Below, piece by piece: positions 1,074 to 28,531 of a DNA stretch of 64,000 bases. The notes below the pieces were generated by a model. The model did not search any database, had not been told where the DNA came from, and was given only the letters and a program-made list of their open reading frames with translations. The DNA is taken from assembly GCA_030052745.1 (NCBI GenBank), contig JANBVO010000007.1:496001-560000 (forward strand), given 5' to 3'. This stretch comes from Pleurostoma richardsiae. Its lineage: Eukaryota > Ascomycota > Sordariomycetes > Calosphaeriales > Pleurostomataceae. Made by a program: the position numbers and the translations under genes. Positions within the stretch are counted from its first letter, which is position 1, and each line of letters opens with the position of its first letter.

Positions 1074-3544
1074 TGCTGGCAGCTGACGGGAAAGAAAGCA
1101 GCCGTGAAAAATGTAGAAAAGAAACACGAGTGAAGGGGCAGGGTGGGAGCAATCCACGCGAGACGTGATGCAGCGGAAAGCTAGCTTCGAGGCAGGAATC
1201 GACTGGTGCTGAGGTCGAGACACTAGCTCTGCATCTCGGGCAGGAGGACTCCACTGCCGTGGCCCAGATCTAGACTCTTATAGCATAGCGATGGAGCCGC
1301 GAAGCTCAGCCGGTCCTTTACCCCTGAGACTAACTCAGGGGTCTGCAGACGCCGCCAACTGAGGCCGAAACGGAAGGGACGAGTAGTGGCTGTACGCGTA
1401 CCTCCCTGATCCAGCTCCGGTCCGGTCCATGGCGACTGTAAGAGACCTCATAGGGCGAGGCAGCGAGGTGATCTCTGATCGAGGGCGTCTCGCCGCGAGA
1501 CAAAGGGGCAGTGTCGTCCTGAGGACAAGTCAGAGCCAGTGAAAGGGGCCGATATAACTGAGTAAGGGGTCATATAGGAGCGGTGAAGGGCGGATCTTGT
1601 CCAGGAGAGGAAAGCGTCACGCCGTGATGAAACAGCTCGCCGAAGGAAAGCACGCCAAGAGTCATCTCTAGAGGCAGTAGTTGACCTCTACGACGAGGCT
1701 AAGCAGGGGAGAAGGTGGCAAGCGACACGCTCTAGGGGATAGCCTTCGGCGGCCAGCGGGAGGAAGAGTACCCCTGAGTACGTGAAATCGGATGGCGCCT
1801 TACCTGATTCACCGAGAAGCCTCAACAGGCCAACAAGACGAGTCGAGAAACAGGACGCCAGGGACAAGATCCAGATGGAGTAAGGAGTAATCAAAGGAGA
1901 GTCCACTCGGACGAGCGTGCCCCTGAGACCACCTTCCGGCTGTCGACTATGACAGGCAGCGATCATAACGCCTGTCTAGCCCGGGAGTGTCCCCCCTGGA
2001 CCAAAGGTCTCATATCCGTACCGGCATCCCCGTCGAGAGTAGCTGCAGCCTGGGGGCGATAGCACCCATGGTGGAGTAACGTGACCACCCATCACGAGCC
2101 GTGTGTCACACAAGCCAAACCAGGGCCCTCAGAGCCTCAATGTGGTCGAAGGAGATGTGCAACCTTGGGTAACAATGCCGTCCTAGACGTCGCTTGTTTC
2201 AACACTCTCATTCGTTGTCCGGACCAGACCGAAACACGCTGCCTGTTGGGGGCGGAGGTGGGAGCGTGGAAGGGAGCGATGTGGATGCTGAAGAAGGTGT
2301 AGTGGAGGGGATACCGAAGGATTAAGCGCCGGCGGGAGAGACAGAAAGTATGGATCACCCTGCTAGAGATAGCATAGAGCAGTTGCGATACCCTCTAAAG
2401 CCATAGCCTCTTCGCCCTAGGCCGATGTTCGGTAAGACGCCTGGTTGTTCTGTATTTAGATCGTCTGAGCAACGGGCGTGATGTGCCGGGCACATATTGG
2501 CGCCGGGCTGGGATGCTTGCAAGACAGGGAAGCACGGACGGACGATCGTGGGGCTTCGCTCTGCATGGTGATGGCAACAGCACAAGAGAGCTCCGTGCGG
2601 AAGCGGAAGCCACCGTGCTCGCGAGAAAAAGAAAGAAAATGGCTGAGAAGTAGAGCGAGACGCTCCTCGTCATGTCTCGGTAGCCATGCTATGCCGCACG
2701 GCTGGGGAGCGTTTCCTGAGCTTCTGATTTGCCAATCAGACCGGCACTTGACGGCTGATCCGGTACGGACTGCCAGGCATGTTTCGTTCCCATCAGCATT
2801 GACTTCCACTTGACTTCCGCTTGACTATTCGCTGTCTCCAAGCCATCGCTCTCTCTCTCACGCGCACCATCATCTCTGCTCCCAAATCTCTCCCTCCAAG
2901 TCCTGCAGCCGTCGGACCGACCATCACATGACGTAGGCAATCTGCAACACGTACCGGTGGGCTGGTTGAATGCAAGATCGAGTCTGCGAGAAAGCTTTTC
3001 TGCATGCGGGAACGCGTGCATCGCTGCAGTTGGGCAGCTGCGCCGAGTGACAAGATCCTGGCGCTTATTGTCAGCCTGCGCTGCTCCAGAGAGCCGGAGG
3101 CCTGCAGGATGAAGACACCAGGCCCCGAGTTCGGCGCGGCGCATGCGGGTTGACTCCGAGTCTCTCGTCCCGCACTGTCCCGCACTGTCCCGCATTCGAT
3201 GGGAGGGAGGAAGAGAAGATGCATGAAATGGGATGACGTGAAGCCGGCGGCCGCTGGATATGCGGAAGTGAGCGAGGAATTGGGGCAATTGACAAATCGC
3301 AAGCATCTCCCTGCGAGGACTGCGAGTACCTGAAGTACCTACCTTACTTACTCCAGGCATGGGCCAATCGGCGAGCAGCCGCAAGACGTAATCCAGGAAC
3401 ACCACCGTCTCCAACCAAACGCCGAGTCCCCCGTCTGTCACCATCAGCATTTCAGGGTCCTTGCGAGTTGCGAGAGACGACTCGGCGTCTGGAATCTTCG
3501 CCTTGTTGACTGATCGGGCCTCACCGATCATTAATCAGTCAATC
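1074..3544. other. Intergenic, about 2.5 kb
   Basis: I see no gene I can support here. It holds the 5' side of the amidoligase, a 10-bp tandem repeat (CGCACTGTCC twice at 3171-3190 followed by a partial copy), and a 92-codon minus-strand frame at 2395-2673 whose first 26 residues resemble a signal peptide but whose remainder looks random. A 280-codon minus frame (2689-3531) has no recognisable domain and shares the region with other equally long frames. Confidence 0.5.
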
Positions 3545-22559: not shown

Positions 22560-24615
22560 ATGATTTATTCGGGGAATGCCACAATGTCTTTCGGTCAGTC
22601 TTGCCATATGGCCGGTCAGTATCCAGGTAACATCCTCCGAACACACAAGTCTCAGCATACTCTCCAAATCTACTGCAAGAGACTTGATGCGGAAAAGAAG
22701 GACATATTTGACGCCAGCCAGAGCTTGGTTTCTTTGTTTGACCTTGAAGACGGCCAAGACGGTTCGTTTACCCTATCTCTCAATTCGTTACTAGGTCCAT
22801 TCAACTCAATTTGAATAGCATATCGGTACAAGCCGCAGATGACCTCGGTGGATCAGCTGAGGGGATACATGAATGAGACTCGAATTGACCCGAAAAGCCG
22901 GTTTGTGTAAGTTCTTCAAGACTCAAAAAAATCTCGATATCAGCTAACTTTTATCAAGATTTCTGCAGACCGCAAGTTCTCGAGGCCCAATGGCTTGTTC
23001 GTATGAGCTATTGACACATATCTTGACACACCATCAAGTGATGCCTTCATTCTTAGATTTTTGCTTCGACTTACGACACAGGGAGAAGCCTCTTTCGACA
23101 ACCCTGTTTCGGCATGAGTACTATCTAGGACAGAGAAACCAACAGGCAGACTTGTCAGTTCTTGGTCGATCAGGAGTCATGTTTCAACATTCATTTAACA
23201 TTCTGGGTTTTGAGCCTGACTCTCGCTACGACTGGCCCCAGCTACGCCACCTTGCGGTGCACCATTCCTTTGACGTGAAGGAGGGTAGATCATTCTGGAT
23301 CATCATTAAAGGCAATAAGCTTGTTAGGGAACGCATTATCGCGTCAACAGAGGCCTCTCATGCAAGGAATCCGGATGCGATGAAGTCGGTAGAAGGATCC
23401 TTTAGCGCCAGCCTGAGTACTCATCTTCTACTGCTGGAATGGTGTACCGAAAATTGGGCACAGTATATTGACTCCCTCGAAGCAAAGTCTCGACGACACT
23501 CATCAGCGGTCGGAAATGTGCCCGTCGCAAAAATCACGGACGAGATGAGCAAGACACCACTTAGACGACCCACTATGGATGCTGCAGGAGTCCCTCGGCG
23601 GCGGACAGGTTTGTCGTTTGCATCCAATGCGGCAGCCCAACATCCAGGAGCTCTAGGGAGAGCTTTAACCGGTATTTCCAGGTTCAGCACAGGGTTCAGC
23701 ATATCCTTGAGATTCAATGAGAAGCATTCAAGCAACCTAGAAGTAACGGATTCAAACAGACGGCCAAGGAAGATTAGCAATGTGAACTTGGAGACGCTAT
23801 TTTCCTTCAATGAGCTTCAAGACCTGCATCGGCTCTCGGAGCGGGCGGATGATGCAATGATGGTCATAGACCAGAACAAGCGTGTTCTTGGTGAGCTGAA
23901 AGAGAATTACATGGTCATTAGCACTTCCGAGGGCTTCAGAGAGTTTGTCAATATTACTACTTGTGAGGCAGAGGTATCGGATTTTACTCGACAGGTAACT
24001 AGTTTAGAAAGGGACTTAGAGAACCACCAGTGTCGACTTAGATCAGTCCTTCAAAGGTTGAAGAAGAGCGAGGGACTGGTATGTTGTTTCCCTTGCTACT
24101 GAAGTCTATGAGCCACATGCTCACACAAAACCAGTTTAACGGGATTTTGCAATACTACAGTACACAAACGGGCCGTAACTTTGCCCGAGCCGCACAGGCG
24201 TCAGCAGACACCATGGAAGACATCGCAGTCAAGACAGAGCGGGAAACAGTTGCCATGCATGTCATCACCGGATTGACTCTGGTTTTTTTGCCGGGGACCT
24301 TTGTCTCTGTAAGAAATCCTATTCTCCTTAGACTCAACAACTCTGACAAGTCATCAGACATTCTTCAGCAGCGGTATTCTTGCCTTCGGGGATAGTAACA
24401 GGGTGAGCGACTGCAGTGCGAAAAGATCAGCACTGAAGCTATTCTTTGCCGTCTCTATCCCGCTAATGATGGTAACACTTGGTATCTGGGTATTGGTGTA
24501 TCATTACAGTAAGCATCGTCATGCCACAGATGCACGGGTGCTTGAGTCTTGTAGCGATACGAGCGCGGAGAAGCAACCTGAGATCGCTCCACTGACGAGC
24601 ACGGTGGTGGACTGA
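22560..24615 (+). CDS. Fungal CorA-like two-TM membrane protein
   Basis: Five exons, 22560-22761, 22819-22906, 22959-24078, 24135-24308 and 24358-24615, keep phase throughout and give 613 residues. The conserved part starts at SRFVFLQTASSRGPM and THHQVMPSFLDF, followed by a DVKEGRSFWIIIKGN block; this is the fungal CorA-like transporter domain found in many filamentous ascomycetes. A long helical region ends in two membrane segments, around residues 508-538 and 555-576. The loop between them carries FLPGTFVSTFFSSG, where true CorA magnesium channels have the GMN signature, so ion transport is doubtful. Function in fungi is unknown; family members are variable and often lie in accessory regions. 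The first donor (GTTCGT) is weak and the start at 22560 is the only Met in the first exon that fits. Third-position bias is much weaker than in the housekeeping genes nearby. Confidence 0.85.
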
Positions 24616-25690: not shown

Positions 25691-28531
25691 ATGGAGACAC
25701 CAGTGCGGCAGATCAACCACCGGCCTATTGTCGACTTCACAACATTTGTCAACGACACGAAAGCCAAGTACAAAGGAAGAAATGGTCGACGAGAACCTGC
25801 ATTCTACATCCCTCACGGGCCACTCTACGAATACTGGACTCCAGCCACGATCCGGGCTGTACTGCAGTCTTTCGAATTCATATATCCCACCGACCATATC
25901 AGGGAGTCCTATCTCCGGGTCTTCTCTACCCTCGTCTACATTAACATGGTGGAGTTCCTTGACATCTTGATCATTCATAACGTTCACGATGGTTTCTTCC
26001 CTCGGAGGTTCCTCCCCCCTGCTCTTGAGGGTCCAATTTACAAGCCCCTACTCAACGCCATCATTAAAGAACAATGGATCTTCTTTCCCCTCGTACTCGA
26101 CAAGAAACTACTCGGTACTCACCTCGACTCAGACTGTATCTTACCATTCGATACCGAAGAACAGTTAGTGGAACGTGGCACGGCGCAACTGTCGAAGGTA
26201 CACATACATCACTCATGCATAAAGCTGAGTGGATCAGTCAGCAAAGGAAGTCGACTGGTTCCGCAGCAGCCCAGGCTCTCGGAGATATCGCATAGCGGTT
26301 GCTTCGTTGTCAAAACGTACAAAGACAGCAAATACAGTCTCTATCGAAATGAAGTCAAGATCCTCACGCAGCTTCATGAGCACGAATACAGCAACGTAGT
26401 TGGATACTATGGATGCTTCGAACAGGACCACACCTACAACATCATCTTGCAATATGCAGATGGCGGGAACTTGTGGGACTTCCTCAAGGATGAGGATCCT
26501 CCCAAGACTTGGGAAGAGTTGTGGCGGTTCTGGAAGAGCTTTTCAAGCATTCTCGATGGGCTGCACGCTATCCACCAATGCGCTATGGGCAAACTGGAAA
26601 AGAGTGCTTATAGGGCGTAAGTACCGAGCTCCTGAGGACAGATGTCTTGATCAAACCATTTTACCTTGACTGCTAACATGTGGCCCTCCAGGGTCCATCA
26701 AGATATCAAGCCTCAAAACATCCTTCTGTGCCGAGGGGAATCTGATTTACTCTACGACTTCGTCCCCATGATCGCGGACTTCGGTAATGCCGATATCAAG
26801 TTCTTGGACTCCGATAAGATGGATCTGGACCGGAATTACGGGCTCTGTATCGACCGTGGAGGGAGTCAGACTTATGGTAAGCTATATCTTGCACCGACCT
26901 GCACACTCCTTTGGGCCGCGTTAACCTCTTGAAGGAGCTCCTGAGGCGAGCCACCATCGCGACTCTTTAGGCAACGGTATGAACCGCATCAGTGAAAAGG
27001 CGGACATGTTCTCGATCGGTTGTGTTATTAGCGTAGTCGCTTCTTGGATTGCCTTTGGCAGGCAAGGAATGCAGGAATCTTTCGAGCGCCGCAGCGAAGC
27101 CGTCAAGAGACTCGATAATATCGAGGATCGTGGCCACATCGGCTGCTTCCACAACGGAGTCGAAGTGCTTCCTGTCGTCAGTGAGTGGCACAAGCACATT
27201 CGGCAGCATCTACACGACTTCGACTCACTCACTCCGCGTATTCTCACCCTTGCGGAAATGCATACACTAAGACAACGGCCGGAGGAACGGTATTTTGCTA
27301 GGGAGCTTGGTGACAAGCTCATTCAGGCGCGGCAAGAGGCTGAATACGACCACCGTCGCAGATATTCCGGATCATTTCCAGTTCTCGACACGTCTCACCC
27401 GCCCATGGTTTCAGTCAAAGTCCAGTCAGGTTCCGCATCGAGCGGAATTGAGAGCAAGAAGGCTACATCTTATATCAACGGAACACCTGGCACAGCCATT
27501 GACACGTCATCCAGCACTGCCCGTTCTTCTGGTGCTTGCTGGCCACACACTCCTGCCACTAGTCTCAGACTTAGTTCCCTCCGTGATCAAGCGGCGGAGG
27601 CGCCACGTTCTGCATCTGGAATAACCGCGCTCGTGGACGAAGAGCACAGAGCCAACGGACTTTCGCCATTGCAAACCGCATCCCAGATGGCTAACACCTT
27701 GAGCATGAATAGTGGGCCGTCAATCTCTGAATTTTTACGAGCAACACTCGCACATGCACGCGACTGGATCAATGCCCAGAAGGCGGCCTCTGCACCTGAC
27801 CCAGGAGTTGATCGTGTCATACAAGAGGTGCAGGCAATCCTGGGTGACCGGGAATACCTGTTCTATGTCGACGGCTCTGCAACGATGAAATGATTCAAGG
27901 CGGATGTTGCCGAAGCCCTTTACACCCTCGCATACATTGCGAAAGGCATGGACGCGGACCATAAAGTGGAGGCCGCCTTTTTGTCCCGCCCATGCGATTT
28001 GCGTAGTAATGCAAACGCGACTCCCCTGCGTGACAAAGTACTGAGACACGAGTTCCGCGGCGAAACGGATCTCATGGAGGACAATTTCGGGAAGATTGTG
28101 GACGACGTCCTCTGGAACCGGCTTCCGCCTGACAAGACGCGGCATACCTGGCCCCCGCGCCCCTTCTCGAAGAAGAAGCCGATCAGTATATTCATCCTGA
28201 CCGACGGGAGATGGGGCAAGAACCCCGGGGTAGAAAACCCTATCAAGCGCCTGATGCGTGAGATGGAAGACCGCAAGCTATCTCGAACCTGTGTCATGTT
28301 CCAGTTCCTGCGCTTCGGCGACGATACCGAGGGCATACGGAATCTGGAGTACCTCAACAGCTTTGGAAGAGACTACGGCTTGTAAGGCTCGACTCATCTC
28401 TGACTCTTGTATAGCAACTAACTTGATCGACTAGTGATATTGTCGACACGCGTCCTATTGAAGGAAGCAGCGTGTACGAAATGTTCCGCGGCAGTATCAG
28501 CCAAAATTCAGACAACTCTGACGACATTTAG
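25691..28531 (+). pseudogene. Protein kinase fused to a vWA-like domain, with an in-frame TGA
   Basis: Exons 25691-26616, 26692-26876, 26935-28381 and 28435-28531 join in phase. Residues 1-200 form an N-terminal region of unknown function. The kinase domain follows: Lys208 in FVVKTYK, HQDIKPQN with Asp313 as catalytic base (Arg of HRD replaced by Gln), IADFGNAD and GAPEAS. A Ser-rich linker leads to a vWA-like fold whose MIDAS-type start is YVDGSATMK and whose second half has SIFILTDGRWGKNPGVENPI, QFLRFGDD and DIVDTRPI. After ATMK, at 27891-27893, the frame hits TGA; the next 194 codons continue the same domain without other damage and end at a normal TAG. As read, translation makes 689 residues and loses almost all of the vWA domain. 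A single CGA-to-TGA change is the simplest cause. No intron can bypass the stop without deleting the domain core. The kinase half is intact, so a truncated active kinase remains possible. Confidence 0.85.

Follow-up and report, generated by a model that had tools for sequence, protein, structure and literature searches.

An in-frame TGA in a fungal kinase gene is probably a recent nonsense substitution in an otherwise intact frame

In the window, the 64,000-nucleotide stretch of DNA that was analysed (C104:496001-560000 of a 39.4-Mb genome in 136 contigs), a kinase gene on the forward strand is interrupted by an in-frame TGA at 27891-27893, which probably arose recently by a one-base nonsense substitution in a nuclear gene that is intact elsewhere, making the allele null or an incipient pseudogene. 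Most likely this is an ordinary gene that was disabled not long ago, and not a novel mode of decoding stop codons. The best reading of the gene itself, judged from its motifs and its relatives in the same genome, is that it belongs to a small divergent family of kinase–vWA-like proteins. Specifically, the TGA follows a 689-codon frame that starts at ATG 25691 and is assembled from three spliced exons (25691-26616, 26692-26876 and 26935-27893), its last residues being YVDGSATMK. Beyond the TGA, 194 sense codons stay open through a canonical intron at 28382-28434 to a TAG at 28529-28531. The parts of the gene are as follows.

25691-26616, plus strand: exon 1, N-terminal region and kinase N-lobe, stopping before the catalytic loop (spliced frame; Pfam PF00069)
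26617-26691, plus strand: intron 1, 75 nt, GTAAGT...CCAG (spliced frame, intron scoring)
26692-26876, plus strand: exon 2, catalytic loop HQDIKPQN and ADFG motif (spliced frame, motifs from sequence)
26877-26934, plus strand: intron 2, 58 nt, GTAAGC...GAAG (spliced frame, intron scoring)
26935-27890, plus strand: exon 3 before the stop, kinase C-lobe (YGAPEA), linker and start of the vWA-like segment (FYVDGSATMK) (matches to the C93 and C67 paralogues)
27891-27893, plus strand: in-frame TGA (sequence)
27894-28381, plus strand: exon 3 after the stop, remaining vWA-like segment in open frame (C67 match, coding bias)
28382-28434, plus strand: intron 3, 53 nt, GTAAGG...CTAG (spliced frame; intron-like gap at a like place in C67)
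28435-28531, plus strand: exon 4, DIVDTRPI C-terminus, with the TAG end at 28529-28531 (spliced frame; aligns to C67)

The spliced frame bears out the first-pass annotation of this DNA on the position of the TGA in frame, with T as the next base, and on the 194 intact codons behind it, including TDGRWGK, QFLRFGDD, a correctly spliced DIVDTRPI and the terminal TAG. The post-stop tail runs from 27894 to 28381 in exon 3 and then through exon 4, ending DIVDTRPI...SDDI. No lesion other than the TGA was found in the spliced frame, the site has no base run longer than three, and the bases after the stop are TTC (TGATTC). The stop also sits within the loop of a 4-bp inverted repeat (27886-27897, TGAA-ATGA-TTCA), probably by chance. 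In exon 1, a GTACAC donor-like site in phase 0 lies at 26198-26284, near an apparent GTACGT intron of C93, and in-frame acceptors at 26266, 26269 and 26284 leave the frame open; the exon 1 model may lack an intron. As for the neighbourhood, long open frames lie directly upstream on the same strand (22948-24615; two pieces have no Pfam match at E 0.01), a short-chain dehydrogenase (PF00106; 29751-30134, minus strand) follows the kinase gene, and the window also contains a fungal transcription-factor domain (PF04082). Together with the short GT-AG introns, that domain suggests a filamentous fungus. Among solved lyases, a 182-aa isocitrate lyase fragment comes nearest to 5e9h, followed by 5e9f/5e9g and then by 1dqu; the first three being Sordariomycete proteins, this gives a slight hint of the class.

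Exon 1 alone matches Pkinase (PF00069) at 34.6 bits, above the Pfam cut-off of 31.7. Additionally, FVVK, HQDIKPQN, ADFG and YGAPE all lie in the spliced frame and make up a set of Pkinase catalytic motifs, which we take to be the Lys of VAIK, HxD...N, DFG and APE, respectively; a clear glycine loop was not seen in the window kinase. In the C-terminal segment the evidence is of another kind. vWA domains carry a MIDAS motif of the form DxSxS and a TDG-type motif, and the stretches compared with them read DGSAT and LTDGRWG in the window gene, ETSIK and FTDGRWG in C67, and DNGSS and LTDGVW in C93. The vWA model PF00092 gave no Pfam match for the window segment or for C93, and it scored C67 at 12.4 bits (E 0.18), below its cut-off of 23.8. 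Of the kinase–vWA fusion proposed earlier, the kinase half thus stands at Pfam level, whereas the vWA label is unconfirmed by Pfam and reflects motif likeness, so that vWA-like is a reasonable guess for this segment. No NCBIfam model exceeded its cut-off, searches of solved structures returned nothing credible (seven sequences, best E 0.81, and in another search one, E 0.92), and a narrow literature search that required all terms together found no paper on fungal kinase–vWA proteins.

The comparison that bears most directly on the TGA comes from the window's own genome, which was the fungal genome compared. The post-stop piece of exon 3 (163 aa) finds one paralogue, C67:389162-389656 (41% identity, E 3.3e-19), and the pre-stop piece matches both C67:390281-390475 (42%, E 5.7e-8) and C93:726847-727212 (35%, E 8.2e-11). 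With C67 as the query, a single match with one TGA inside spans the stop (E 7.8e-25). By these matches the open tail exceeds what chance would give. In line with this, when the window segment, with X in place of the stop, is aligned to C67, there are no gaps around the TGA and the pre- and post-stop pieces are in order. Because C67 aligns across the TGA without a nearby gap, the lesion would be a substitution, an indel or a missed intron being much less likely on this alignment. The stop column holds Ala in C67 and Tyr in C93, the latter aligned by motifs and position at 23% identity, which suggests a variable residue. The proposed origin of the TGA from an Arg codon (CGA) is unsupported: Arg is present in neither paralogue, the C93 residue being weakly aligned, and the ancestral codon is not inferable from these paralogues.

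The two relatives differ in what they retain. The C67 locus lies on the minus strand at about 389000-390475 (within C67:387000-394000) and comprises a vWA-like segment and a late-kinase match; its match sets in only towards the end of the kinase, from residue 440 of the window protein onward, and a tblastn search of the 3.5 kb upstream, as far as 394000, found no earlier kinase part or N-lobe with E up to 1. C67 may be a family member that has no kinase. Its DIVDT block lies behind an intron-like interruption, at a place like that of intron 3 in the window. C93, which bears kinase matches with a segment aligned to the vWA-like one behind them, looks like a complete family member; on inspection by eye, a GTAAGT...GACAG stretch precedes its DLIDT block. 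Given an E of only 0.70 for the post-stop piece against C93, and a C93 segment that as query finds only itself in its own genome, C93 can hardly support the C-terminal comparison. Directly before its vWA-like segment C93 has an apparent 54-nt intron (L008:3245-3298) that holds an in-frame TGA at 3281-3283, again by eye, and a six-frame reading of C93 would mistake it for a premature stop; at the place of this intron no such donor is present in the window gene. The orthologue search covered a collection of bacterial and archaeal genomes, where none of 67 pattern matches was confirmed as a relative, and viral contigs, where none of 14 was.

The tail behind the stop is still coding-like in the correct frame. 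The codon log-likelihood in the true frame is +0.08 before the stop and +0.16 after it, with the other frames negative, in a table trained on the pre-stop part, the paralogues and three other open frames, the post-stop part being left out; GC at the three codon positions is 0.56/0.41/0.57 in the pre-stop part and 0.55/0.40/0.69 in the tail. Under neutrality, with assumed indel (frameshift) to substitution ratios of 0.03-0.15, the probability that the 582-nt tail has escaped a second lesion drops to 0.5 once divergence reaches about 0.7-2%, and is 0.05 by about 3-9%. Because the tail is intact and coding-like and no second lesion is present, either the stop arose recently or selection still acts on the tail. 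The recent loss put forward in the first-pass annotation is supported by these two features, and its preference for mutation over readthrough agrees with the absent UGA-CU context.

If the stop is used, translation would terminate at codon 690 and yield a 689-aa kinase without its C-terminal module, as had been suggested; the spliced frame does give 689 residues with the kinase motifs. A stop well before the last exon junction, or a long untranslated stretch behind it, directs a transcript to nonsense-mediated decay. Here the TGA lies 488 nt upstream of the last exon junction with a long untranslated stretch behind, for which reason decay would be expected and would probably clear most transcripts. 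A disabling lesion in an intron-bearing gene with no near-identical second copy found is what a unitary pseudogene or null allele presents. Beyond annotation such a lesion matters little, a gene predictor being apt to truncate the model or to invent an intron.

A consensus or sequencing error at the TGA, the real gene being intact, is an unlikely explanation, albeit one with which the otherwise undamaged frame agrees and which in one assembly is indistinguishable from mutation. However, the site lies outside any long base run, and finished consensus sequence seldom contains substitution errors. It is very unlikely that the truncated kinase is the selected form, in a family that splits its modules and in which a kinase without the C-terminal module is functional here. 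The separate occurrence of the modules, with a vWA-like part in C67 and no kinase N-lobe to be recognised within 3.5 kb upstream of it, and the intact motifs of the window kinase would fit such a form, but an old stop should have left a decayed 194-codon tail, and the tail is intact; moreover, by the decay rule above, the tail makes the mRNA an expected target.

A bolder possibility is that the UGA is a kept switch, the truncated kinase being the default and the full kinase–vWA-like protein being made only under UGA suppression. We consider this highly improbable. The route could be stage-specific editing or regulated readthrough outside the known contexts, and the modules of the family are also found apart, in C67. 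Were the stop kept in other species, that would argue against a recent loss and point to UGA suppression in a fungal signalling gene, a case absent from the stop-edit counts of PMC4817773.

Ribosomal readthrough, which would bypass the stop and give two isoforms, is extremely unlikely. According to the available part of PMC4207609, UGA is the leakiest of the stops, and fungi read through it efficiently where CU comes next; the frame past the stop in the window gene is intact. Yet the TGA is followed by TTC, and the UGA-CU(A) context is absent, as the first-pass annotation had noted of the CTA context; additionally, the extension here is a whole domain and not a targeting tail.

Removal of the stop by sexual-stage A-to-I editing of the mRNA, on the model of PUK1 in Fusarium graminearum, is extremely unlikely for this site. 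Correction of premature stops is known in filamentous ascomycetes, including in a pseudokinase gene, and in the accessible text of PMC11156358 the preferred sites have U at -1 (more than 70% of sites, so that it is not universal) and a purine at +1 and +3, and lie in hairpin loops. A27893 has G at -1, T at +1 and C at +3, where U, A/G and A/G are preferred. For F. graminearum, PMC4817773 counts UAG in 323 and UAA in 180 of the 503 genes whose stop codons are edited, and since these add up to all 503 no UGA is among them. Corrected premature stops are described in PMC11156358 as UAG to UGG, and the available portions of a hyphal editing study (PMC11169179) concern UAG stops, with which those of a review (PMC7306014) agree; in the window the stop is UGA with G at -1. 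A27893 does fall in a predicted hairpin loop at all five flank sizes, but this is weak evidence, because 116 of the 320 adenines of the exon are alike at ±30 nt (152 at ±20 and 86 at ±40 nt) and the local fold has average stability against shuffles (z -0.18). Taken together, little in the sequence favours editing of this TGA.

An unrecognised intron that removes the TGA is extremely unlikely. Donors at 27700 or later were paired with acceptors located short of 28120 to give GT/GC...AG introns 40-220 nt long; 48 pairs remove the TGA and leave the frame open, and among the best 40 of these 48 the donors match at most three of six consensus bases. On a simple score, GT-AG introns over the TGA reach at most 3.5 if the frame is to be kept, and 4.5 if every phase is allowed. 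For comparison, 44 stops within 34 stop-bearing matches, among at least 141 Pkinase matches in the same genome, score 5.5-9.5; this set comes from 125 scored of 205 candidates, hence the lower bound, and the window gene stands outside it. Because introns are read through in these matches, they give no true premature-stop rate. Among isocitrate lyase matches in the same genome, likewise counted as raw matches, four of nine have in-frame stops and one of these has five. The intron score discriminates weakly: of 360 positions drawn at random from three long open frames, 226 score 5.5 or above and 76 score 3.5 or below. For that reason we reject the intron mainly on the ungapped C67 alignment, residues of which it would delete. 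The apparent C93 intron just upstream of the like segment, with its in-frame TGA, is the one observation, made by eye, that leans the other way. No credible intron removing the TGA, the outcome that the first-pass annotation named as decisive against its reading, thus emerged from enumeration and scoring.

Other origins were rejected or not favoured. A frameshift pair or indel is rejected on the lack of a gap near the stop in the C67 alignment, a retrocopy on the presence of introns, and a separate downstream gene is not favoured, the pre-stop part already aligning to the start of the same C67 segment. RIP is unlikely because no near-identical DNA copy was found; the 801 bases at 27600-28400 match only themselves in the own genome, among the matches listed.

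Among known systems, the window gene shares with PUK1-type edited premature stops, as described in the available text of PMC4817773 and PMC11156358, a stop inside an open reading frame of a kinase-family gene in a fungus. It differs in having UGA rather than UAG and G rather than U at -1, and it is known here from genomic sequence alone. With the UGA-CU readthrough genes of fungi, in so far as the accessible part of PMC4207609 describes them, it has in common a UGA stop and an open extension, but here UU follows the UGA instead of CU and the extension is a whole domain.

Nonsense-mutated genes and unitary pseudogenes are a further known class, typified by a single in-frame stop, retained introns and an otherwise intact frame, all of which the window gene shows. 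Additionally, as in unitary pseudogenes, no near-identical second copy was found here, and no feature that sets the window gene apart from them was observed.
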